From Paracoccus liaowanqingii (lineage in GTDB: Bacteria > Pseudomonadota > Alphaproteobacteria > Rhodobacterales > Rhodobacteraceae): a stretch of DNA of 64,000 nucleotides. This document shows, piece after piece, positions 10,490 to 59,685 of the stretch. How positions within the stretch are numbered: the first letter of the stretch is position 1; each line of letters starts with the position of its first letter. The stretch lies in assembly GCF_004683865.2 (NCBI RefSeq), contig NZ_CP038439.1, forward strand, positions 1,590,501 to 1,654,500, read 5' to 3'. Under the pieces are notes generated by a model. It worked only from the letters and a program-made list of their open reading frames with translations. It had not been told where the DNA came from and made no database searches. Made by a program: the position numbers and the translations under genes.

Positions 10490-10909
10490 TCAGGTGTCCT
10501 CGCGGGTCAGCACCGCAGCGGTCCGCTTCGCACTGTCGATGACGTCGGCGATCTGTTTGCGCGCAGTGGCCCGGCAGCCCTTGCCCATGGCCAGCTGCGT
10601 CAGCGCCATGACGGCCTCGCCGCCTTCTGCCGCCAGCTCGCCTGCCGACTGCATGAAGCAGGCAGCGTCCTCGACCTCGGGCAGCGTCTGCGTCAGCCAG
10701 CGCCGTACGGGGCGCTCCCCGACGGCATCCTCGAGGGCCATGATCTCGATCAGCGGCCAGTCCAGCTGTCCAGACTGCCGCTTGGAGATGGATCCCTTGG
10801 AGATGTCATGGCCAAGGCGGGCGCCGATCATGGCAGCGGCGGCATCGAAGCCTCCGGCCTTCTCGATCAGGTTGGCCATGAAGGCGCGGATAATCCCTCG
10901 TTCAGACAT
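10490..10909 (-). CDS. Candidate CII-like phage regulator
   Basis: A 139-residue helical protein. The first half has a helix-turn-helix-like pattern: FDAAAAMIGARLGHDISKGS, then ISKRQSGQLDWPLIEIMALE. A helical C-terminal half may oligomerise. ATG 10909 is preceded by AGAGGA with a 7-nt spacer. A hairpin (GGAAAC-CGC-GTTTCC, 10923-10937) lies just upstream of the ribosome site. It is the second gene of the leftward operon, after the Cro-like gene, which is where lambda keeps cII. The regulator role is inferred from this position and the HTH-like segment; sequence similarity to CII itself is not evident. Confidence 0.5.
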   Translation of the reverse strand: MSERGIIRAFMANLIEKAGGFDAAAAMIGARLGHDISKGSISKRQSGQLDWPLIEIMALEDAVGERPVRRWLTQTLPEVEDAACFMQSAGELAAEGGEAVMALTQLAMGKGCRATARKQIADVIDSAKRTAAVLTREDT

Positions 10910-10922
10910 CTGAGAATCCTCT

Positions 10923-10943
10923 GGAAACCGCGTTTCCTTTTTT
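10923..10943. promoter_or_regulatory. Hairpin in the cro-like/CII-like leader
   Basis: GGAAAC-CGC-GTTTCC followed by six T on the plus strand. In the leftward transcript it forms a stem ending 3 nt before AGAGGA of the downstream gene, so it could affect that gene's translation. On plus it has the form of a weak terminator. The 190-bp gap (10910-11098) also contains 8-bp arms GGCTGATG/CATCAGCC at 10978-10985 and 11013-11020. Confidence 0.4.
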
Positions 10944-11098
10944 GGCCGCCGGACCCGTGGCATCTGAGCCTGGGTGGGGCTGATGGATTTGCGAGTGGAG
11001 TGTTTGGCGTGGCATCAGCCTCACCTTTGAAGACGATCGGCGAAGCCGCAGAGCCGTGCAGACGACAAGAGCAGGACTGCGGAATGTCACGGCCGGGT

Positions 11099-11335
11099 TC
11101 ATTCGGCTGCCTCGACACTCCATCCGGGCTCAAAGTCGGACGGGGACAGTTCGACCTGACCGGCGCGAGCTGCCTCGAGGAGGCGTCGACGCGGCTTCTC
11201 CGGTACGCGCCCGCCGGTCCCGCCGCTGTCTGCGGAGGTGACCCATCGATAAACCCAGTTCACCGAACAGCCGGTGACTTCGGCAACGCGCTTTGCGCCG
11301 CCGCATTTTTTGATGATTTCCCTGGCAGGTTCCAT
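11099..11335 (-). CDS. Cro-like HTH regulator (carph-isopro type)
   Basis: A 78-residue DNA-binding protein. Residues 1-35 form a helix-turn-helix of the YdaS/Cro-like kind (IIKKCGGAKRVAEVTGCSVN, then WVYRW). The family hallmark GGTGGRVPEKPRRRLLEAAR is followed by ELSPSDF. This layout matches small phage regulators annotated as carph-isopro domain proteins. ATG 11335 has GAGG 8 nt upstream. It is the first gene of the leftward operon, transcribed divergently from the repressor, with operator O1 28 bp upstream of its start. It should act like Cro, though which operators it binds is unknown. Confidence 0.75.
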   Translation of the reverse strand: MEPAREIIKKCGGAKRVAEVTGCSVNWVYRWVTSADSGGTGGRVPEKPRRRLLEAARAGQVELSPSDFEPGWSVEAAE

Positions 11336-11362
11336 CGGCACGACCTCGCTTGTACTTATGTT

Positions 11363-11383
11363 CACTTTCCAAAATAGAAAGTG
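11363..11383. promoter_or_regulatory. Phage operator O1
   Basis: Perfect inverted repeat CACTTTC-N7-GAAAGTG with 7-bp arms, between the cro-like and repressor genes. On the minus strand a TTGAC -35-like box precedes it by the same 5-nt offset as at O4, so it probably covers the leftward early promoter. Confidence 0.7.
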
Positions 11384-11400
11384 CGAAGTCAAGCGGCAAC

Positions 11401-11415
11401 TTGCTATCTTAGCAA
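11401..11415. promoter_or_regulatory. Palindrome TTGCTA-TCT-TAGCAA in the divergent interval
   Basis: Perfect 6-bp inverted repeat with 3-bp centre, midway between O1 and O2. Its sequence is unrelated to the TTTC-N7-GAAA sites, so a second regulator may bind here. Confidence 0.4.
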
Positions 11416-11420
11416 TGTCC

Positions 11421-11441
11421 GTCTTTCGGATTCGGAAATAT
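11421..11441. promoter_or_regulatory. Phage operator O2
   Basis: TTTC-N7-GAAA core at 11424-11438, 18 bp before the repressor ATG. Same spacing as O1, O3 and O4 but weaker outer bases, consistent with autoregulation of the repressor. Confidence 0.6.
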
Positions 11442-11456
11442 CAAAAAGGGATGCGT

Positions 11457-11729
11457 ATGGAATGGCTCAAAGCAGAAATTGTCCGACGAGGGGTGACCCA
11501 GAAGGACGTAGGGGCAGCGGCAGGGCTGACCGATGTGCAGATGTCGAAGGTGCTGAGCGGCAACCGCAAGCTCAGCGCCGAGGAGGCGTCTGCGATATGG
11601 CGGCACTTCGGCTACGTTCTCCCTGACGACGAGGCCACGGATACGGACATGCGTATTCTCCAGCATTTGGCCAGATTAAGTGACGATGAAAAGACCGCTC
11701 TAGAGCGCCTGCTGAAGCGAGGCGGTTAG
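11457..11729 (+). CDS. HTH (XRE-type) phage repressor, CI position, short form
   Basis: A 90-residue protein with an N-terminal XRE-like helix-turn-helix (GVTQKDVGAAAGLTDVQMSK, then VLSGNRKLSAEEA) and a short helical C-terminus (RLSDDEKTALERLLKRG). It lacks the LexA/S24 autocleavage domain of lambda CI. ATG 11457 is chosen because AAGGG lies 6 nt upstream; ATG 11451 directly abuts it. The gene is divergent from the cro-like gene, flanked by operators, and ends in its own hairpin (11744-11768). It is the best candidate for the lysogeny repressor. Induction must use something other than RecA-driven self-cleavage. Confidence 0.7.
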   Translation: MEWLKAEIVRRGVTQKDVGAAAGLTDVQMSKVLSGNRKLSAEEASAIWRHFGYVLPDDEATDTDMRILQHLARLSDDEKTALERLLKRGG

Positions 11730-11743
11730 GATCACCGACATAT

Positions 11744-11768
11744 GCCTCCAGGGCGACCAGGAGGCTTT
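11744..11768 (+). terminator. Probable terminator of the repressor gene
   Basis: GCCTCC, 10-nt loop, GGAGGC then TTT, starting 15 bp after the repressor stop. A modest stem with a short T-run. The remaining DNA up to O3 (11769-11910) shows no gene that I accept. Confidence 0.45.
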
Positions 11769-11910
11769 CCTTCTCCCGCAGCGACAGGCTGAGGACCATT
11801 TCTTCAAGGTCTGTGTGCAAACTGTTCTCTTTTTGTTCTAATCGCAACCTAGACGTTCGGGCGCCCCGCTGTCAAAGCGCTTTTGCCCTCTCGCACCCTT
11901 ATAGCGTGTA

Positions 11911-11929
11911 AGTTTCCATTCGGGAAAGT
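11911..11929. promoter_or_regulatory. Phage operator O3
   Basis: AGTTTC-N7-GAAAGT at the head of the rightward recombination operon, 34 bp centre-to-centre from O4 and matching it in core sequence and spacing. Confidence 0.65.
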
Positions 11930-11935
11930 TTTGTG

Positions 11936-11941
11936 TTGACA
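11936..11941 (+). promoter_or_regulatory. -35 box of the rightward early promoter
   Basis: A perfect TTGACA lies between O3 and O4. The expected -10 region falls inside O4 and shows no good TATAAT match, so only the -35 is claimed. On the opposite strand TTGACT stands at the same distance from O1. Confidence 0.5.
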
Positions 11942-11944
11942 GGT

Positions 11945-11965
11945 GACTTTCGTTTATGGAAAGTC
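11945..11965. promoter_or_regulatory. Phage operator O4
   Basis: Perfect inverted repeat GACTTTC-N7-GAAAGTC with 7-bp arms, overlapping the expected -10 region of the rightward promoter. Occupancy should block the recombination/integration operon. Confidence 0.7.
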
Positions 11966-12010
11966 AGGACATAGGCAAAGCGCCTCCACACAAGCATAGG
12001 TGGGTCCAAC

Positions 12011-12178
12011 ATGTCCTCAGAACTTTCCCCTTCGCTGCCCCGTCAAGCGACACTCGAAGCCTGCGCCGGCCACGATCCCGATGCCGGGACCCACGCCACC
12101 GGCAGCCAGAAGATGCTGGTCTACATGCTGATCGGTGGGGCGCTCGGATGGGCAGTCATCGCGTGGGTGCTGCTGTGA
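12011..12178 (+). CDS. Small single-span membrane protein
   Basis: A 55-residue protein starting MSSELSPSLP, with a polar, acidic N-terminal half and one C-terminal membrane span (about 36-54, LVYMLIGGALGWAVIAWVLL). The ATG follows GGTGGG at 6 nt. Its TGA overlaps the GTG start of the next gene (GTGA), a coupling arrangement. It is the first gene of the rightward early operon, about 45 bp after operator O4. It would be expressed as soon as repression lifts. Function unknown; small membrane proteins in this position can be exclusion or host-membrane factors, but nothing here proves it. Confidence 0.55.
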   Translation: MSSELSPSLPRQATLEACAGHDPDAGTHATGSQKMLVYMLIGGALGWAVIAWVLL

Positions 12179-12390
12179 GCACCCGCGACATTCACCTCGA
12201 CATCGTTCGAGGGCGCCTGATCCGCCGTACCATCATCGGGGCCTTTGCAGGCTTGGCCATCGTGCTTGCTCTGGCGTGGTTCATTACCCTTGCAATCATT
12301 GACGGCCTGTCCCGCAGCGACTGGCCCGCCATGTGTGATGGGCTGACCACCGCTGCGGAGTGCGCGGCGCGGATAGTGGAGGCCCGCTGA
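12175..12390 (+). CDS. Small membrane protein, GTG start
   Basis: A 71-residue protein starting at GTG 12175, coupled to the preceding stop. A basic N-terminus (RDIHLDIVRGRLIRR) is followed by one strong membrane span (about 18-40, IIGAFAGLAIVLALAWFITL). A short periplasmic-looking tail carries two Cys (MCDGLTTAAECAA), which could form a disulfide. Its TGA overlaps the ATG of the next gene. The basic-in, Cys-out topology suggests an inner-membrane protein with the tail outside. No family is recognised. Confidence 0.55.
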   Translation: MSTRDIHLDIVRGRLIRRTIIGAFAGLAIVLALAWFITLAIIDGLSRSDWPAMCDGLTTAAECAARIVEAR

Positions 12391-12542
12391 TGAGCAAGAT
12401 CAACGTTTGGGGGCCAGCCGACCGCAGCGTCCCCACGCCCCTCAGCGACCACTACAAGCCGCTCTCGTGGAAGATGCGCGCCTGGCAGATTGTGACTTGG
12501 GTGCTGTTCCTGACGCTGATCGCTGCGGGGGTGGTGACATGA
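12390..12542 (+). CDS. Small C-terminally anchored membrane protein
   Basis: A 50-residue protein, MSKINVWGPA at the start, with a C-terminal hydrophobic helix (about 31-49, AWQIVTWVLFLTLIAAGVV) and a polar N-terminal half. ATG 12390 shares its first base with the preceding TGA, and its own TGA overlaps the next ATG (12539). It is the third member of a run of tiny, overlapping membrane proteins at the front of the rightward operon. The tight coupling makes it likely that all three are translated together. Confidence 0.55.
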   Translation: MSKINVWGPADRSVPTPLSDHYKPLSWKMRAWQIVTWVLFLTLIAAGVVT

Positions 12543-13945: not shown

Positions 13946-14986
13946 ATGGATGGCGCATGGCCCTTTGACGACTCGCCCAAGCCCGACGCGGGCAAGGGTG
14001 CAGCAACCCCTGAGCCGGAGCGCGGCGAACAGTTCCGTCTCGGCGCTGGCGTCCACCAGGTCGACGGCGAGGACTACCACCGCGACCCCTGCCCCGAGGC
14101 GTCCCTGTCCTCGACGCTGGCCAAGGTCATGCTGGCGCAATCCCCGCTGCATGCCTGGACGGCCAGCCCGCGGCTGAACCCGGACTGGGAGCCGATGAAC
14201 AAGAAGACCTTCGACATCGGCAGGGCCGCGCACCGCGCGATCCTGGGCGCTGGCGGAGACTATGTCGCCATCCCCAAGGCCATGCTGGCCAGCAACGGCG
14301 CGGCCAGCACGAAGGAGGCCAAAGCCTTCATCGAGGACGCCCGTGCCTCGGGTCAGACGCCCCTCAAGGATGACGAGGTCGACCAGACCCACGCCATGCG
14401 CGCCAAGGCTCATGACAAGCTGACGGCGCTGCAGATCGACCTCGATCCTGCCCGATCGGAGATGGTGGCCGTCGCCCAGATCGATGGCGTCTGGTGCCGG
14501 GCTATGATCGACAACGTGCCGCTGGATGCGCGCCTGCCGATCTACGACTTCAAGACCTGCGAAAACGCCAGCCCCGAAGCCTGCCAGAAGGCCATCCTGA
14601 ACTATGGCTATGACGTGCAGGCCGAGCATTACCGGCAGGTCTGGCAGGCCGCCACGGGCGAGGATCGGGTGTTCCGGTTCGTCTTCCAGGAAAAGAGCGC
14701 CCCGCACGAGGTCTGCGTGGTCGAGCTGGGCGCCGACACCCTGCTGATCGCCCGCAAGAAGATCGCCCGGGCCCGCGAGATGTGGGGGCTCTGCCTGCGG
14801 GCGGGCCAGTGGCCGGGCTATCCCCTTGGCGTCCATCGCGTCGACCTGCCTGCCTGGGCCATCGAGCGCTGGCTGGAGCGTGAAAGCCACGAGGCCCAGA
14901 TCAAGCGCGATACGGGCCGCGACATCCTTGCCGCAGCCTATGCGGCACAATCCCCTGACAATCACGAGGTGAACCCATGGGCCTGA
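13946..14986 (+). CDS. RecE-like exonuclease (PD-(D/E)XK, DUF3799 type)
   Basis: A 346-residue nuclease-like protein. The PD-(D/E)XK core is visible: GRAAH (H96), an acidic lead-in (AQIDG, D180; RAMIDNVPLD), YDFKTC with D201 and K203, and a downstream YGYDVQAEHYR helix (220-230). These are the features of the RecE/exonuclease VIII C-terminal domain, which digests duplex DNA 5' to 3' to expose single strands for annealing. Here the nuclease domain stands alone rather than behind a long N-terminal extension. It overlaps the ATPase gene by 10 bp, so the two are translated together and probably act together. Confidence 0.8.
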   Translation: MDGAWPFDDSPKPDAGKGAATPEPERGEQFRLGAGVHQVDGEDYHRDPCPEASLSSTLAKVMLAQSPLHAWTASPRLNPDWEPMNKKTFDIGRAAHRAILGAGGDYVAIPKAMLASNGAASTKEAKAFIEDARASGQTPLKDDEVDQTHAMRAKAHDKLTALQIDLDPARSEMVAVAQIDGVWCRAMIDNVPLDARLPIYDFKTCENASPEACQKAILNYGYDVQAEHYRQVWQAATGEDRVFRFVFQEKSAPHEVCVVELGADTLLIARKKIARAREMWGLCLRAGQWPGYPLGVHRVDLPAWAIERWLERESHEAQIKRDTGRDILAAAYAAQSPDNHEVNPWA

Positions 14987-16077
14987 TCCGCTTCATTCCC
15001 GTCACGCAGATCCACGACCCCCTGACCCTGTCGATCGGCCTCAGCGGCGGATCGGGCACGGGCAAGACCTACACTGCGCTTCTGATGGCGCGGGGCATCG
15101 CTGAGACCGTTACGGGGAAGGCCGGGGCGCCCATCGGGTACGTCGACACCGAGAACCGCCGTGCCCTGCACTACAAGGCGGCTTTCCCCGAGATGATGCA
15201 CTTCGATTTCACCGCCCTGGATGAAATGGGCGACCTGGTCGGCTTCGGGCCGGAACGCTGGATCGAGGTCATTGACGCCGCCGAGGAAGCCAAGCTGCCG
15301 GTGCTGATCCTGGACAGCTTCTCGCATGCCTGGGAGGGTGTCGGTGGGGTACTGGACCTGCACGCGACCACGCTGGAGCGACTGACCGGCGGCAAGAGCG
15401 AGCTGGCGGACAAGCGCAGCCAGCTGGCGTGGGCCGAGGTCAAGCCGCGGTACCGCCGCCTGATCGACCGGATCGTGCGGGCAAAGTGCAACATCATCAT
15501 CTGCACCCGCGCCAAGCCGGTCATGCAGAGCGGCTTCGGGGCCAACGCCAAGAACGCCCGCAAGACCAAGACCCGCCGCGATGACGTGCCGTGGGATCCG
15601 GCGAGCGACGGCGACCTGATGTTCGAGATGACCACGATGGTGATCCTCGACCCCTCCGCGCCCGGCTGCCCGGTGCACCGCATCAAAGTGGCAGACCAGT
15701 TCAAGGCCCTCCTCGACCCGCGCCAGCCGATGGGGACCGAGACGGGCCGCAAGATGGCCGAATGGGCCCGAGGCCAAGGCAACGCCCAAGAGCAGAAGGC
15801 AGCCCTGGACGAGGCGCGGGACGAGGCGCGCAAGGGCCGCGCAGCGATGCGCTCCTGGTGGCAGGCGAACCCGCAGAAGGCAGCCATTGCCAAGACGATC
15901 CTGGCCGAGCTGCAGGACATGGCCGAGGCCGCGGACGCCGACGCGAAGGCTGCGGACGACGACCCGTTCGCCGACGTGCCCAAGGCTGACCCCGACGAAC
16001 CGTCCGACAGCATGACCCCCGAGCAGCGCGCCGAGTACGAGGCAGCCATAGCCGCATTGAGCGGCGCTGCGGCCTGA
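14977..16077 (+). CDS. RecA/Sak4-like phage recombination ATPase
   Basis: A 366-residue P-loop protein. Walker A is GGSGTGKT (24-31), Walker B is PVLILDS (108-114), and the conserved IGYVDTEN lies at 53-60. The RecA-like core spans about 1-240. A helical, Ala/Asp-rich tail (about 270-366) is probably flexible and acidic. Its place after a RecE-like exonuclease, where RecT would normally sit, and its size suggest the Sak4 group of RecA-like annealing ATPases or a related AAA_24 protein. ATG 14977 overlaps the exonuclease gene by 10 bp. The ATPase fold is secure; the annealing role is inferred from context. Confidence 0.75.
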   Translation: MGLIRFIPVTQIHDPLTLSIGLSGGSGTGKTYTALLMARGIAETVTGKAGAPIGYVDTENRRALHYKAAFPEMMHFDFTALDEMGDLVGFGPERWIEVIDAAEEAKLPVLILDSFSHAWEGVGGVLDLHATTLERLTGGKSELADKRSQLAWAEVKPRYRRLIDRIVRAKCNIIICTRAKPVMQSGFGANAKNARKTKTRRDDVPWDPASDGDLMFEMTTMVILDPSAPGCPVHRIKVADQFKALLDPRQPMGTETGRKMAEWARGQGNAQEQKAALDEARDEARKGRAAMRSWWQANPQKAAIAKTILAELQDMAEAADADAKAADDDPFADVPKADPDEPSDSMTPEQRAEYEAAIAALSGAAA

Positions 16078-16085
16078 CCCCCACC

Positions 16086-16152
16086 CTGCCGTCCGTCGCC
16101 TGTGACGGCAGCACCTGGCGGGGCCAATGCACCATTCCGGCCCCGCCCTTTT
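16086..16152 (+). terminator. Tandem hairpins, probable intra-operon terminator
   Basis: Two stems follow the ATPase gene: CTGCCGTC/GACGGCAG (16086-16111), then GGCGGGGCC/GGCCCCGCC (16117-16147) followed by CTTTT. The second has the form of an intrinsic terminator. It would separate the recombination genes from the methylase, excisionase and integrase genes unless antitermination occurs. Confidence 0.5.
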
Positions 16153-16175
16153 CCCATCATCACGAGGATCGAGAC

Positions 16176-16391
16176 ATGCGCCACGACTTCGAGAACATCC
16201 CCGAGGATGTCGTTGTCATCTTGCACCCCGCCGATGCGAACCTGATCCACCGCGAACCGGTGAAAGCCACCCGCCTCGGCGATTACTTCTACTGCGCCGG
16301 GACCGACCCAATGCGGATGGGGGCGGATTACGGGCTGGGTGAGATCGCGGCGTTCATGCGCGGCTATGAGCTGGCGGCGGTGACGGCATGA
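16176..16391 (+). CDS. Phage hypothetical protein
   Basis: A 71-residue protein starting MRHDFENIPE. It appears to be a compact alpha/beta fold (DVVVILHPADANLI, GDYFYCAGTDPMRM) with a helical end. A purine-rich CACGAGGA sequence lies about 8 nt before ATG 16176. It overlaps the adenine methyltransferase gene by 4 bp (ATGA). No known domain was identified. It follows the tandem hairpins and is the first gene of the distal part of the rightward operon. Confidence 0.55.
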   Translation: MRHDFENIPEDVVVILHPADANLIHREPVKATRLGDYFYCAGTDPMRMGADYGLGEIAAFMRGYELAAVTA

Positions 16392-17023
16392 GCCAGAACA
16401 TCAGCACCGCTGTAATGCAGCGGCGGTCCGAACCGCATGACAGCCTGGACGATTTCCCGACGCCACCATGGGCCACGCGGGCTTTGTGTCACTGGCTGCG
16501 CGAAGCAACTGGTCGTGTGCTCAGTGATATGAGCTGTCGCGAGCCTGCTGCGAACCGTGGGCACATGTTCAGGCCGCTTCGTGAGTTCTTCGCCAGCGTC
16601 GAGGCCGCGGACATCCACGACTACGGCGCCGGCTTCCCGCAGCAAGACTATCTGTTCGGCCCGAATCCCGAGCGCGTGGACTGGACAATCACAAACCCGC
16701 CCTTTCGCCTCGCCGAGCAGTTCATCTCGAGGGCGCTGGCCACCTCTGAACTTGGCGTCGCTGTCATTGTTCGTTCAGCCTTTCTGGAGGGGATCGGCAG
16801 GCATGATAGGCTGTTCTGCATCACGCCTCCTACTGACATTCTGCAGTTCAGCGAGCGGGTCGTGATGCACAAGGGCCGTCTAGTGCCAGGCGGCAGCACT
16901 GCCACCGCCTACTGCTGGCTTGTATGGGACAAGTGCTCTCCGCCGCGCTGCACCATCTTCGACTGGATCGAGCCCTGCCGATCGAAGCTGGAACGGGCGA
17001 GCGATTATCAGGTGGCGGCATGA
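16388..17023 (+). CDS. Phage adenine-specific DNA methyltransferase-like protein
   Basis: A 211-residue protein with the catalytic NPPF motif (TNPPF, 102-106) of N6-adenine methyltransferases. It opens with DDFPTPPWATRAL (21-33), typical of phage Dam-like enzymes, and has a motif-I-like EPAANRGHM (52-60). Motif I has Asn where Gly is usual, so S-adenosylmethionine binding deserves checking. Such enzymes modify phage DNA against host restriction or alter regulation. It overlaps both neighbours by ATGA junctions. There is no associated endonuclease that would make it a restriction system. Confidence 0.7.
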   Translation: MSQNISTAVMQRRSEPHDSLDDFPTPPWATRALCHWLREATGRVLSDMSCREPAANRGHMFRPLREFFASVEAADIHDYGAGFPQQDYLFGPNPERVDWTITNPPFRLAEQFISRALATSELGVAVIVRSAFLEGIGRHDRLFCITPPTDILQFSERVVMHKGRLVPGGSTATAYCWLVWDKCSPPRCTIFDWIEPCRSKLERASDYQVAA

Positions 17024-17481
17024 GCCCGCGCCCCCAACCCATCAAGCACGGCACGATCTATGCCTACAAGTGCCGCGGCTGCCGGTGTGACCCCTGCACC
17101 CGGGCCAATACCGAGACCTGCAAGACCGAGCGGCGCCGGAAGGGCATCCTGAGCCCCGGGAACGCCTGCAAGGTCGGGACTGAGGTCTTCACGACACAGC
17201 AGGAGGCTGCCCGCGCTGCCGGGCGGACCAAGGGCGCGATCACGTATCACCTGAACCGCTACGGCAACCTTGACCGCCTCGGAGGCAAGCGCGGCGGGCC
17301 CAGCAAGGGGCGATGCAAGCCGGTCTGCGTCGGCATGCAGGAATGGCCGTCCCGCTCGGCGCTGGACCGGGCCTTAGGTGTCCCCATCGGAACGGTCAGC
17401 GCCTGGATCCTGCGCGGCGACATGAACGCGCTGATCGGCGCGGTGATGAATATGAACCCAGCCAGAAAGGCCGCAGCATGA
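17020..17481 (+). CDS. Cys-cluster and HTH phage protein
   Basis: A 153-residue basic protein. Five Cys (18, 21, 23, 26, 34) form a cluster, CRGCRCDPC then TETC, compatible with zinc binding. Two weak helix-turn-helix-like segments follow, one at TQQEAARAAGRTKGAITYHL and one near the end (RSALDRALGVPIGTVSAWIL). The overall look is a zinc-plus-HTH DNA-binding protein, perhaps related to phage or intron-associated HTH modules. It is coupled by ATGA to the methyltransferase before it and to the endonuclease gene after it. Function unknown. Confidence 0.55.
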   Translation: MSPRPQPIKHGTIYAYKCRGCRCDPCTRANTETCKTERRRKGILSPGNACKVGTEVFTTQQEAARAAGRTKGAITYHLNRYGNLDRLGGKRGGPSKGRCKPVCVGMQEWPSRSALDRALGVPIGTVSAWILRGDMNALIGAVMNMNPARKAAA

Positions 17482-18098
17482 CCGTCTTACGCATCCTGAT
17501 TGCCTGCGAGACGTCGAGCGTCATGCGCCGGGCCTTCGCCGCCCGTGGGCACGACGTCTGGTCCTGCGACCTGCTTCCGGCCGAGGACGCAAAACAGATA
17601 GGAGACTATCCGCTCTACCTTGTCACAAATCTAGGCCGGGTCATCAGCTTCCAATCAGGCGCGCCCATTGTGATGAAGCCCCGGCCACACATAGGCGGCT
17701 ACAGAATAGTCACTCTCTGCAATCGGGAGCGACGCACGACGACCACTGTCCACCGACTTGTTGCGAAAGAATTCCTGCCAAACCCGCAAGGGCTGCCGCT
17801 TGTTCGGCATCGCGATGGAGACAGGTCGCACAACTCGGCCGGCAATCTCGCGTGGGGCACCTATGCGGACAATGAGGCCGATAAGATCGAACACGGGACG
17901 CGCCGATACGGGACTTCGCGAATGAAGCTGAACCGCGCTGCCCGCGCTGAAGTGCTGGAAATGCACAGGATGGGAGTGACCCGGCGAGAGATTGCTGAGG
18001 TGTTCGGCGTGGATCGGTCAACGGTCACCCGACTCGTTAACGGAACGACATGGAGCAACCGGAAATGGCCGATAGCAGATGGGGCAGCGCAGCGATGA
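17478..18098 (+). CDS. NUMOD4-HNH homing endonuclease fused to a methylase N-terminus
   Basis: A 206-residue chimera. Residues 1-39 (ILIACETSSVMRRAF, ARGHDVWSCDLLPAED) are the conserved start of a phage DNA-methylase-like family. From residue 41 the protein switches to a homing endonuclease. A NUMOD4-like segment, GDYPLYLVTNLGRVIS (42-57), is followed by the HNH fold VHRLVAKEFLPN...VRHRDGD...HNSAGNLAW (91-126). A C-terminal helix-turn-helix, GVTRREIAEVFGVDRSTVTR, spans 166-185. The junction is seamless and in frame. A short frame after it (18095-18235) resembles the methylase C-terminus. The HNH residues look intact, so the endonuclease may be active; the methylase cannot be. Confidence 0.75.
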   Translation: MTVLRILIACETSSVMRRAFAARGHDVWSCDLLPAEDAKQIGDYPLYLVTNLGRVISFQSGAPIVMKPRPHIGGYRIVTLCNRERRTTTTVHRLVAKEFLPNPQGLPLVRHRDGDRSHNSAGNLAWGTYADNEADKIEHGTRRYGTSRMKLNRAARAEVLEMHRMGVTRREIAEVFGVDRSTVTRLVNGTTWSNRKWPIADGAAQR

Positions 18099-18235
18099 CC
18101 GTCCACCGCGCGCCGCCCGGCCCGGATCGGTGGAAGATGCGCAGCAGGACGTTCGAGGGTGTGGCTCAGGCCTGCGCCGATCAATGGGGCGGCCATGCCC
18201 TGCAAGAAATGGAGGTGGCTAATGGGACGCCATGA
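18095..18235 (+). pseudogene. C-terminal remnant of the interrupted methylase-like gene
   Basis: A 46-codon frame (APPGPDRWKMRSRTFEGVAQ, then ACADQWGGHAL) that I recognise as the usual C-terminal signature of the same phage methylase-like family whose N-terminus opens the preceding gene. It is in a different frame from the endonuclease, with an ATG overlapping that gene's TGA, so it might still be translated as a peptide. The catalytic middle of the methylase is absent. This was judged from memory of the family, not by alignment. Confidence 0.55.
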
Positions 18236-18515
18236 AACAATCCGCGGGCCCTACTCGCCCGAGACCCTCGCCGAGCGGTGGGGCGTCAGCTCAGAGACCA
18301 TCCGACAAATGACACATCGCGGCGAATTGCCCAGCTTCAGAGTTGGTCGCAGTATCCGCATCCCCGCGCAGGCAGTAGAGGATATCGAATGCGGCAAATC
18401 AGCATCGGACGGCTCAAAGGCCGTTTCGTCGTCAGCTGGAAATCAGATGATGGTCGGCGGAAGCGATTTCGTCTTGAAGCACTCAGCCGAAAGGAAGCCG
18501 AAGCAGAGGCCATAG
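18222..18515 (+). CDS. xis: Excisionase-type HTH protein
   Basis: A 97-residue protein. Residues 10-55 form a MerR/excisionase-like winged helix (YSPETLAERWGVSSETIRQM, then THRGELPSFRVGRSIRIPA), the HTH_17 type used by recombination directionality factors. ATG 18222 has GGAGG 6 nt upstream. The C-terminal 40 residues overlap the start of the integrase gene in another frame (127 bp). They are Ser-rich and probably disordered, so the functional domain ends near residue 57. Overlap with the integrase is strong contextual support for an excisionase. Confidence 0.75.
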   Translation: MGRHETIRGPYSPETLAERWGVSSETIRQMTHRGELPSFRVGRSIRIPAQAVEDIECGKSASDGSKAVSSSAGNQMMVGGSDFVLKHSAERKPKQRP

Positions 18516-19372
18516 ATGTCTATCGCCGGGAAACGATCACAACATCTGGCGAGACTGTCGAGGCCCTGTGGAAGCTATATCTGAACGAGCGCGAGGGCCG
18601 GGCTATCGTCAAGTCGATGAGCTCGACGGTCAAGGCCATGATGCCGTTCTTCGGCGCGCTGCGGCCGGACCAGATCACCGTCGAACATTGCCGCGACTAT
18701 GACGCCCGGCGCCGCCTTGCAGGCATCAAGCAGGGCACCGTCTGGACCGAGCTGGGCCATCTGCGGATCGTGGTGAATTGGGCTGTGAAAAAAGGGCTCA
18801 TAGAGCGGGCGCCGTTCATCGAGCTGCCGCAGAAGCCCGCACCACGCGAACGGCACCTGACACGTGCCGAGGCCGGCGCACTGATCCGCGCCGAAGCGCA
18901 GCCGCATATCATCCTGGCGATCCGCCTGATGCTGTCCACCGCCGCCCGCGTGGGCGCCATCCTCGACCTGACATGGGATCGGGTAGATCTTGAGCGGCGC
19001 GTCATCAACCTGCGCACAGAGGGCACCGGCCCGCGCAAGGGTCGCGCTGTGGTGCCGATCAATGACACGCTGCTGGCGGCGCTGGTCGAGGCGAAGGGCC
19101 AAGGCATGACAGACCATGTGATCGAGTGGAACGGCAAGCCCGTCCAATCGATCCGCAAGGGATTCGGCGTGGCCGTCCGATCCGTCGGCCTGAAGGACGT
19201 GACGATTCACACCCTGCGCCACAGCGCCGCCGTTATGATGGTCGAGGCGGGTACGTCGATGGATGAGGTCGCGCAGTACCTGGGCCACAGCAACAGCTCG
19301 ATCACCTTCAAGACCTACGCCCGGTTCAGCCCCTCACACCTGCGCGCAGCTTCGAGGGTTTTGGATTTCTAG
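18389..19372 (+). CDS. int: Tyrosine-type site-specific integrase
   Basis: A 327-residue tyrosine recombinase. The N-terminal arm-binding part (1-50) is followed by a SAM-like core-binding domain (about 55-140) and the catalytic domain (about 155-320). Catalytic residues are visible: R187 (TAARVGA), K217, H274-x-x-R277 (HTLRH), H300 (YLGHSN) and the nucleophile Y310 (KTYARF). ATG 18389 follows GAGGA with good spacing. The gene lies at the prophage end and stops 85 bp from the 3' end of tRNA-Val, as expected for an integrase that targets the tRNA 3' end. Confidence 0.93.
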   Translation: MRQISIGRLKGRFVVSWKSDDGRRKRFRLEALSRKEAEAEAIDVYRRETITTSGETVEALWKLYLNEREGRAIVKSMSSTVKAMMPFFGALRPDQITVEHCRDYDARRRLAGIKQGTVWTELGHLRIVVNWAVKKGLIERAPFIELPQKPAPRERHLTRAEAGALIRAEAQPHIILAIRLMLSTAARVGAILDLTWDRVDLERRVINLRTEGTGPRKGRAVVPINDTLLAALVEAKGQGMTDHVIEWNGKPVQSIRKGFGVAVRSVGLKDVTIHTLRHSAAVMMVEAGTSMDEVAQYLGHSNSSITFKTYARFSPSHLRAASRVLDF

Positions 19373-19457: not shown

Positions 19458-19483
19458 TGGTGGCCCGTGACAGATTCGAACTG
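19458..19483. other. Predicted attachment site core (tRNA-Val 3' end)
   Basis: The 3' T-arm, acceptor strand and CCA of tRNA-Val face the prophage and the integrase. Tyrosine integrases commonly use this part of a tRNA gene and regenerate it on integration. The other copy should lie at the far prophage end outside the window, so the exact core cannot be defined here. DNA at 19373-19457 shows no gene and may hold arm sites. Confidence 0.45.
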
Positions 19484-19532
19484 CCGACCGGCCCGGTGTA
19501 AACGGGACGCTCTACCACTGAGCTAACGGGCC
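19458..19532 (-). tRNA. tRNA-Val (anticodon TAC)
   Basis: A 75-nt cloverleaf on minus: acceptor GGCCCGT pairs with ACGGGCC, discriminator A, CCA encoded. D-arm is GCTC...GAGC, the anticodon loop TTTACAC gives TAC, and the T-arm is GGCAG-TTCGAAT-CTGTC. The outermost anticodon-stem pair (27:43) is a mismatch. The 3' end faces the integrase. This is the chromosomal border of the prophage. Confidence 0.93.
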
Positions 19533-58551: not shown

Positions 58552-59685
58552 ATGAATGAAAACCTGAATACTGCCGATGGCGCGGCGCGCGGTCATGTGG
58601 ATTGGGCGTCGATCCTGGCAGGCGCCGCGATCGCGGCCGGGGCATCGGTCGTCCTGACCGGCTTCACGGCGGCCTTGGGCCTGGGCTCGATTTCGGCCGA
58701 GCCGGGCGAGGGTCTGGGCACCTTCGCCCTGATTCTGGTCGGCCTCTTCGCCTTCGTGTCGCTGGTCGCGGTCTATGGTCTGGGCGGCTATGTCGCCGGA
58801 CGCATGCGTGCCCGCCACTCGGCCTCGGAAGACGAGACCGAAGCGCGTGACGGCGTCCACGGCCTGACGGTCTGGGCCATCGGCATGATCCTGGGCGGCA
58901 TGCTGGCCGCCGGGGCGATCTCGGGCGGCGTGCGCGCGGCGGGTAGTGCCGCCACCACGGCGGTCGAAGCGACCGGCTCTGCCGTCGGCGGCGCCCTGCA
59001 GGGCACCGGCCAACTGGCGGGCGGCATCGTGGGCGGCGCAGGCCAGCTTGCGGGCGGCGCGATCAGCGGCGTGGGCCAGCTGGCCGGCGGCGCGGCATCG
59101 GGCGCGGCGGAAGCCGCCTCGGGCGACAGCACCGGAGGCAATGGCGGCAACCCGCTGGATTACCTGACCGACCGTCTGCTGCGCGGCGAAGCCGCCGCAC
59201 CGCAGGAGTTCTCGGACGAGGCGATCCGCAGCGAAGTGACCAGCATCCTGGGCACCGTCCTGCGCACCGGCGAAGTTCCCGAGGACGATCTGGACTATCT
59301 GCGCGACGCGCTGGCGGCCCGGACCGAACTGACCCCGAACCAGATCGACGCCCGCGTCGACCAGGCCGTGACCCAGGTGCAGGAACTGCGCACCGAGGCC
59401 GAAGAGCGTCTGGCCGAAGCGCAGGCTCAGGCGGAAGAGGCTCTGGCCACCGCCGAAGCCCGTGCGCAGGAACTGCGCGCCGAGGCAGAGCAGCGCCTGC
59501 AGGAAGCTCAGGACGCGGCGATCGACGCGGCCGAAGCTGCGCGCAGCGCCGCCGTCTGGTCGGCCCTGTTCTTGGCCGTCACCTCGCTGGTGGCCGGTCT
59601 GGCAGCCTGGATGGGTGCCATCCGGGGCGGTCACGACCGCGATGCGGGCCGCGTCTGGTCGGGTCTGACCCGCCGCCGCAGCTGA
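58552..59685 (+). CDS. Membrane protein with Gly-repeat and coiled-coil domains
   Basis: A 377-residue protein. It has two to three membrane spans near the N-terminus (ASILAGAAIAAGASVVLTGF; FALILVGLFAFVSLVAVYGL) and a third hydrophobic stretch (WAIGMILGGMLAAGAISGGV). A Gly/Ala-rich repeat region (GQLAGGIVGGAGQLAGGAIS) follows, then a DUF-type acidic segment and an Ala/Glu/Arg coiled coil (about 275-335). A final span (AVWSALFLAVTSLVAGLAAW) ends the protein. The 24-residue peptide immediately precedes it. Topology suggests an envelope-linked protein with a cytoplasmic coiled coil. Unknown function. Confidence 0.75.
   Translation: MNENLNTADGAARGHVDWASILAGAAIAAGASVVLTGFTAALGLGSISAEPGEGLGTFALILVGLFAFVSLVAVYGLGGYVAGRMRARHSASEDETEARDGVHGLTVWAIGMILGGMLAAGAISGGVRAAGSAATTAVEATGSAVGGALQGTGQLAGGIVGGAGQLAGGAISGVGQLAGGAASGAAEAASGDSTGGNGGNPLDYLTDRLLRGEAAAPQEFSDEAIRSEVTSILGTVLRTGEVPEDDLDYLRDALAARTELTPNQIDARVDQAVTQVQELRTEAEERLAEAQAQAEEALATAEARAQELRAEAEQRLQEAQDAAIDAAEAARSAAVWSALFLAVTSLVAGLAAWMGAIRGGHDRDAGRVWSGLTRRRS

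Follow-up and report, generated by a model that had tools for sequence, protein, structure and literature searches.

The immunity region of a Paracoccus prophage: a two-cluster, lambda-type operator arrangement and a candidate SOS-controlled antirepressor gene

The 64-kb stretch of Paracoccus liaowanqingii DNA analysed here (the window, to which all unprefixed positions refer) contains a prophage immunity region that we read, with a probability of roughly 70%, as a lambda-type switch induced via an SOS-controlled antirepressor. Its two-cluster, lambda-type operator system is supported by a comparison of related immunity regions and by the natural replacement of positions 11027-12529 in two genus-mates. 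Protein binding, promoter activity, and the function and mode of action of the antirepressor we infer from the DNA sequence. The most interesting part of the switch is a convergent open reading frame (ORF) that appears to be wired to the SOS response.

In the proposed mechanism, the short XRE-type repressor would bind five palindromes of 19-21 bp in the lysogen. These fall into two clusters, one (O1, Omid and O2) between the repressor and cro genes and the other (O3 and O4) where the rightward arm begins. O1 and O4 would occupy the spacer between the -35 and -10 elements of the early promoters, with the right operator arm doubling as the -10 element. Because these two sites lie over the early promoters, their occupancy would block the replication genes on the left and the recombination, excision and integration genes on the right. 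Each of them would have an upstream counterpart 35 bp off, beyond the -35 box (Omid for O1 and O3 for O4), whereas O2 would be an extra site that probably tunes the repressor's own promoter. Cro is predicted to read the same sites as the repressor. Because the repressor lacks a self-cleaving domain, induction would probably be indirect, not as in lambda. Upon DNA damage, LexA would leave its box, the small gene behind it would be transcribed against the repressor gene, and the product of that gene, perhaps together with antisense transcription, would disable the repressor. The arrangement suggests how prophages with non-self-cleaving repressors may still answer DNA damage.

The features on which this reading draws are as follows.

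10490-10963, minus strand: weakly CII-like gene of the leftward arm (phrog_101 at E = 0.008 only)
11027-12529: immunity stretch, holding cro, the repressor gene and all five sites; replaced whole in loci L021 and L022
11099-11335, minus strand: cro-like gene, 78 aa, first gene of the leftward arm
11363-11383: O1, candidate operator over the leftward early promoter; 21-bp form with perfect arms; TTTC-N7-GAAA core at 11366-11380
11387-11392, minus strand: -35 box TTGACT of the putative leftward promoter, with GAAAGT in the -10 slot at 11364-11369; read from the sequence
11398-11418 (centre 11408): Omid, candidate fifth operator, ACTTGC-TATCTTA-GCAATG, 35 bp from O1
11421-11441: O2, candidate operator adjoining the repressor start, 58 bp from O1; core at 11424-11438
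11457-11729, plus strand: repressor gene, 90 aa, XRE-type helix-turn-helix (Pfam HTH_31/HTH_3, both under the curated cut-offs)
11572-11820, minus strand: small convergent ORF, 82 aa, TTG start, sharing about 155 bp with the 3' end of the repressor gene
11824-11838: LexA (SOS) box GTTC-N7-GTTC, 4 bp before the TTG start of the small ORF
11846-11875, minus strand: possible promoter of the small ORF, TTGACA (11870-11875), 18 bp, TAGGTT (11846-11851); found by eye and absent from the strict scan
11910-11930: O3, candidate operator upstream of the -35 box of the rightward promoter; core at 11913-11927
11936-11941, plus strand: -35 box TTGACA of the putative rightward promoter, with GAAAGT in the -10 slot at 11959-11964; read from the sequence
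11945-11965: O4, candidate operator over the rightward early promoter; 21-bp form with perfect arms; core at 11948-11962
14009-19372, plus strand: rightward arm, with exonuclease VIII-like, AAA, excisionase-like and integrase genes among its contents
19458-19503: 46-bp attachment repeat inside tRNA-Val(tac); a second exact copy lies outside the window at C1:1565757-1565802

Candidate operators, early promoters and gene arms

The motif TTTC-N7-GAAA occurs exactly four times in the 64-kb window, whereas 100 dinucleotide shuffles contained 0.11 copies on average and never more than one. A preliminary description of this DNA had placed its four operators at these positions, with perfect arms in O1 and O4, and we confirmed both points. 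Its four-site system needs one addition, a fifth, variant site that it had missed, so that the layout is 3+2. This site, Omid, keeps the register of the others and carries a T-to-G change in the left arm with the mirror change in the right (TTGC-N7-GCAA). Although Omid is not of the TTTC type, it is unlikely to be a chance palindrome, as the probability of a symmetric-variant site within 2 bp of its position was 0.0013 in 20,000 shuffles. The weakest of the five is O2, with three mismatches to the 19-bp form by a count made by eye.

The preliminary description had also proposed scanning the host genome. In 4.93 Mb, the 19-bp form ACTTTC-N7-GAAAGT has two exact copies, O1 and O4, both in this prophage; O3 and two further genomic sites beyond the prophage differ from it at one position. 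At up to two mismatches the form is no commoner than its mirror control (60 versus 72 genome-wide). The bare TTTC-N7-GAAA core occurs 46 times genome-wide against 19 for the mirror control, and four of the 46 lie inside the 44.2-kb prophage.

Centre to centre, the sites are 35 bp (O1-Omid), 23 bp (Omid-O2) and 35 bp (O3-O4) apart. The identity of the first and last distances indicates that both early promoters share one module, to which O2 is an extra. As read from the sequence, the module at each predicted early promoter is an upstream site, a -35 box and a site over the spacer and the -10 element. A TTGAC box had been noted at the same offset before O1 on the minus strand and O4 on the plus strand, and this holds. 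Both -35 boxes span offsets -19 to -14 from the operator centres, and GAAAGT occupies the -10 slot 17 bp on. A strict sigma-70 consensus scan of 10900-12400 listed no promoter. Among the relatives described below, 32 of 37 loci carry a TTGACA-like hexamer at one of the offsets -19 to -17 from O1, and 18 of 25 do so for O4. Such hexamers peak again at -7, an effect of the common operator core TTGCGA, which is itself similar to TTGACA. In the related loci L026 and L027, O1 lies very near the cro ATG, so that the transcript may be almost leaderless, unlike that of the window.

The assignment of replication genes to the leftward arm and of recombination, excision and integration genes to the rightward arm, made in the preliminary description, is borne out by profile matches. 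Further left of the CII-like gene these are to RusA and a primosomal/DUF1376 protein, and on the right to exonuclease VIII-like, excisionase-like and integrase proteins. The prophage measures 44.2 kb between its exact 46-bp repeats.

The Cro-like protein is 41-46% identical to proteins annotated as Cro-like in Paracoccus phage Pben1 and Sinorhizobium phage phiLM21. It does not reach the cut-off of the YdaS family (PF15943; 18.1 bits against 30 in Pfam), and two of six relatives match it at E <= 0.01. The repressor, which has no Pfam match to an S24 or other peptidase domain, has eight relatives at 61-80% identity. A direct search with it of viral contigs, genome contigs, phages and plasmids returned no relative; weak relatives (27-37%) occur in 4 of 394 family genomes and 11 of 125 genus genomes, its own included.

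A recurrent geometry with changing operator sequence

Weak repressor matches in genus-mates led to loci L026 and L027, and Cro matches to phage Pben1 (L029). In all three, a different palindrome occurs four times, spaced almost as in the window. The window's Cro protein alone found nothing in viral contigs, whereas an alignment of Cro proteins found 15 of the 125 genus genomes (own included) and 106 viral contigs. The comparison took in 80 viral loci kept of the 106, the window, L026, L027, L029 and 13 genus loci; a filter for a repressor-side ORF passed 82 of these, and 64 were retained as non-redundant. The repressor region encoded by L079 is that of L027, and the one encoded by L078 is that of L029 (Pben1).

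Among the 64 loci, a copy of the O1 palindrome lies 32-36 bp beyond O1 in 24 (0-1 in 20 shuffles) and 56-61 bp beyond it in 26 (0-2), and far palindrome pairs 32-36 bp apart are present in 19 (0-1). At least one of the three spacings is shown by 40 of the 64: one by 15 loci, two by 21 and all three by four, leaving 24 with none, with L037, L040 and L043 read on the wrong strand and counted as misses. The window itself scores two of the three because its Omid differs from O1. In further genus, family and class loci, read on the correct strand and scored with no shuffle control, the three spacings are present in 4, 7 and 5 of 27 that were new to the comparison or misread in the first set; these are 30 scored loci (5, 9 and 6) minus L036, L038 and L041, which had already been used, and the set excludes L044-L046 (weak matches) and L140 (flank too short). 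The Omid-O2 distance is 23 bp in the window and 24-26 bp in relatives.

What recurs within the palindromes is the register rather than the sequence. Half-sites in 32 loci, picked by a filter that demanded the geometry and including L051 and L067 with a wrongly chosen O1, share C at -4 (96%) and T at -7 (89%), while the rest varies between phages. These observations offer a testable rule for immunity regions of alphaproteobacterial phages, namely to look for palindromes at set distances from cro and not for a known sequence.

The operator sequence follows the regulators. Across 33 loci with confident sites (L067 hand-corrected, L051 dropped, L026 and L029 added), distances between operators rise with those between Cro proteins (rho 0.59) and with those between repressors (rho 0.49), each with a Mantel p of 0.0005 and with shared ancestry still included; the partial correlations are 0.49 for Cro and 0.33 for the repressor. 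Locus L047 carries the window's operator together with a repressor that has a similar recognition helix, and L063 also shares the operator. In genus-mates G440 (L021) and G439 (L022), blastn alignments to the window cover 10496-11026 (531 bp at 86%) and begin again at 12530 (about 84%), so that the immunity stretch is exchanged in its entirety. Beyond 10496, the left arm likewise matches in patches, indicating that these phages are mosaics. The L021 cassette encodes a helix-turn-helix repressor-like protein of 149 aa and has a pair of CCAC-N5-GTGG palindromes at each end; the L022 cassette differs, with a repressor-like protein of 127 aa (helix-turn-helix seen by eye).

The convergent small ORF and its LexA box

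GTTC-N7-GTTC, the motif in front of the small ORF, is the published LexA box of Caulobacter (PMC12700426). In the host of this prophage, it stands upstream of both lexA and recA. Its core occurs 128 times genome-wide on both strands against 84 for the mirror control, a modest excess, and the window holds a second match at 59326, far from the prophage. The presence of the box before the ORF and its association with short repressors (below), together with the LexA-controlled antirepressors known in 186, N15 and Gifsy, lead us to read the small ORF as a putative SOS-induced antirepressor gene.

The same arrangement recurs at loci with short repressors. With a short repressor taken as one of fewer than 160 aa, and with this border and the 200-bp reach both set after a first look at the data, a box lies no more than 200 bp behind the repressor gene at 13 of the 26 loci with short repressors and at none of the 52 with long ones (Fisher 4.7e-8). 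The first locus set alone gave 7 of 13 and 0 of 45, and a reach of 300 bp gives 14 of 26 and 4 of 52. Ten loci without a plausible repressor were dropped from these counts by eye (L081, L112, L125, L039, L137, L138, L139, L141, L144 and L145), L140 was likewise left out, and the Cro matches of L040-L043 are weak (E 1e-6 to 1e-4). An exact box within 200 bp is absent from the other 13 short-repressor loci, L047 and L063 among them. Of the 13 loci with a box, 9 have a longest small ORF that begins at a distance of 28-44 bp from the edge of the box, compared with 18 bp for the window; in 12, this ORF and the repressor gene share 107-188 bp. A short repressor-like gene is followed by a box, at 70-135 bp, in L021, L022 and L023 as well (box at 8520 in L021 and 2799 in L022).

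Four loci with long repressors, L067, L080, L087 and L108 (x about 1100), have a box about 265 bp after the repressor gene and, behind it, similar ORFs (MKRPP...CDDCGHSR), possibly another SOS-controlled early gene.

The small ORF of the window matches no Pfam or PHROG family, hence no homology to known antirepressors was found, and a protein search returned no relatives. The part of it that does not overlap the repressor gene has a coding-like GC content by codon position (0.73/0.27/0.70), and substitutions between L026 and L027 are distributed 11/9/20 over the codon positions (p about 0.08, by hand). Pairwise alignments of small proteins with their own repressors gave a weak signal (combined p 0.037). 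Against a profile of repressor C-termini, 6 of 15 small proteins beat all 100 plain shuffles. When shuffles preserved the hydrophobic pattern and the own repressor (though not its relatives) was excluded, the combined p was 2.6e-7, for loci that are not independent of one another. The resemblance of the small-protein family to the repressor's C-terminal helix would suit interference by mixed dimers. However, the window's own small protein is not significant in this test (its score of 3.6 was reached by 21 of 300 shuffles), and segments of unrelated Cro proteins used as controls scored up to 5.2 (mean of 33, -0.13). We therefore confine dimer mimicry to the wider generalization below.

The LexA box might instead stand here by chance and the small ORF be an antisense artefact, leaving a plain lambda-type switch that is induced spontaneously or via another phage's factor. 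The modest genome-wide excess of the box core, the small ORF's lack of a family and of relatives, and the two box-less loci L047 and L063 would all fit. Yet chance does not readily produce boxes at half of the short-repressor loci and at none of the 52 long-repressor ones, nor ORFs that start at a similar distance from the box in 9 of 13 cases and overlap the repressor gene in 12, nor the further boxes of L021, L022 and L023; we consider this explanation unlikely. Alternatively, the effective LexA-controlled product might not be a protein at all, and the repressor gene might be silenced by antisense RNA or transcriptional interference. A transcript from the box would enter the repressor gene, as the overlaps in 12 of 13 loci illustrate, and the window's ORF begins with TTG. 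However, the counterparts share a helical motif that scores against the repressor C-terminus profile, and both the codon-position composition and the preference of the L026/L027 substitutions for third positions speak for a translated gene, which makes an effect without a protein rather improbable.

An SOS-induced antirepressor protein thus remains our preferred reading of the small gene. The part of the reading in which repressor and Cro share the palindromes has its own competitor, namely that Cro alone or the repressor alone reads them and the other regulator uses other DNA. The symmetric difference of Omid, with TTGC for TTTC, looks as if made for a different reader. Against this, the operators covary with both proteins (partial correlations as above), and in the comparable CP-933P system the footprints of both regulators overlap (PMC8630535). 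A single reader is the least probable of these three explanations.

A wider generalization is tentative, and we would not yet put it on a par with the main reading. The window may represent a widespread alphaproteobacterial class in which a short repressor, together with a LexA-controlled convergent gene over the 3' end of the repressor gene, has taken the place of the self-cleaving one. The small protein would copy the C-terminal helix of the repressor and act by mixed dimerisation, on a recurrent 3+2 scaffold (33-35, 57-60 and 33-35 bp) whose operator sequence changes with the repressor and Cro.

Relation to known phage switches

In lambda, the repressor and cro genes are divergent with operators between them, the operators number 3+3, and the replication genes lie behind cro. 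Transcription of its repressor gene runs parallel to that of the recombination and integration arm and away from cro. The region described here is alike in having a second operator cluster at the other early promoter and in the contents and relative directions of its arms. It differs in having 3+2 sites, with spacings of 35 and 23 bp, and a 90-aa repressor without a self-cleavage domain, and in the LexA-boxed convergent ORF between the repressor and the far operators. The preliminary description had called the switch a mirror image of lambda's with the orientation swapped. Since the relative gene directions are those of lambda, the swap merely reflects the strand on which the map is drawn, and we rejected it as a special feature. 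The accompanying match to lambda PR and PL stands as the outline of a lambda-type switch; the equivalent pairs, though, are O1 with Omid and O4 with O3, and O2 is extra.

Rhizobium phage 16-3 (NC_011103), also an alphaproteobacterial phage, has two operators on each side of its c repressor gene. It differs from the present case in that its annotated operators are of an ACAA type and lie 17 bp (OL) and 26 bp (OR) apart, and in that its c gene is 792 bp long. The candidate operators of the window do not fit this type and spacing.

The PaaR2/YdaS/YdaT system of CP-933P offers a parallel for the regulators. According to PMC8630535, YdaS acts there as Cro, the footprints of the repressor and YdaS overlap between the divergent genes, and additional sites accompany an analogous PL. 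By contrast, the operators named in that study are OR1-3 and OL1-3, with four 18-bp inverted repeats at equal spacing, CP-933P has a toxin-antitoxin pair beside its repressor, and the Cro protein of the window scores below the YdaS cut-off of Pfam.

For the proposed induction, the relevant precedents are the small LexA-controlled proteins that switch off repressors, among which PMC3121763 names GfoA/GftA of Gifsy, Tum of 186 and AntC of N15. The window resembles the Tum and Gifsy cases in having a LexA box before the gene and a repressor without a peptidase match. The Gifsy antirepressor genes, as described there, differ in lying outside the immunity region, whereas the ORF here is convergent and overlaps the repressor gene.

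Among the literature matches listed, drawn mostly from outside the subscription literature, none describes the 3+2 geometry or a LexA-boxed convergent ORF in its accessible text. For phiLM21-like prophages, a 2025 study (PMC12429752) states that lambda- or 16-3-like operators are absent. The present analysis supplies candidate operators for phiLM21 (L093) itself. This phage has a related Cro, an O1 (x = 17) and, on the far side, two palindromes separated by 35 bp, all with an operator sequence other than the window's; it differs from the window in that the scan found neither near copy and in its repressor of 227 aa. In the study of the Paracoccus virome that includes Pben1, the word 'operator' is absent from the main text, which reports only one CI-like protein with an S24 domain (PMC6536676). 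Pben1 combines a related Cro, the same geometry and a LexA box with another operator sequence. Like that of the prophage described here, the integrase gene of Pben1 adjoins a tRNA-Val(TAC).
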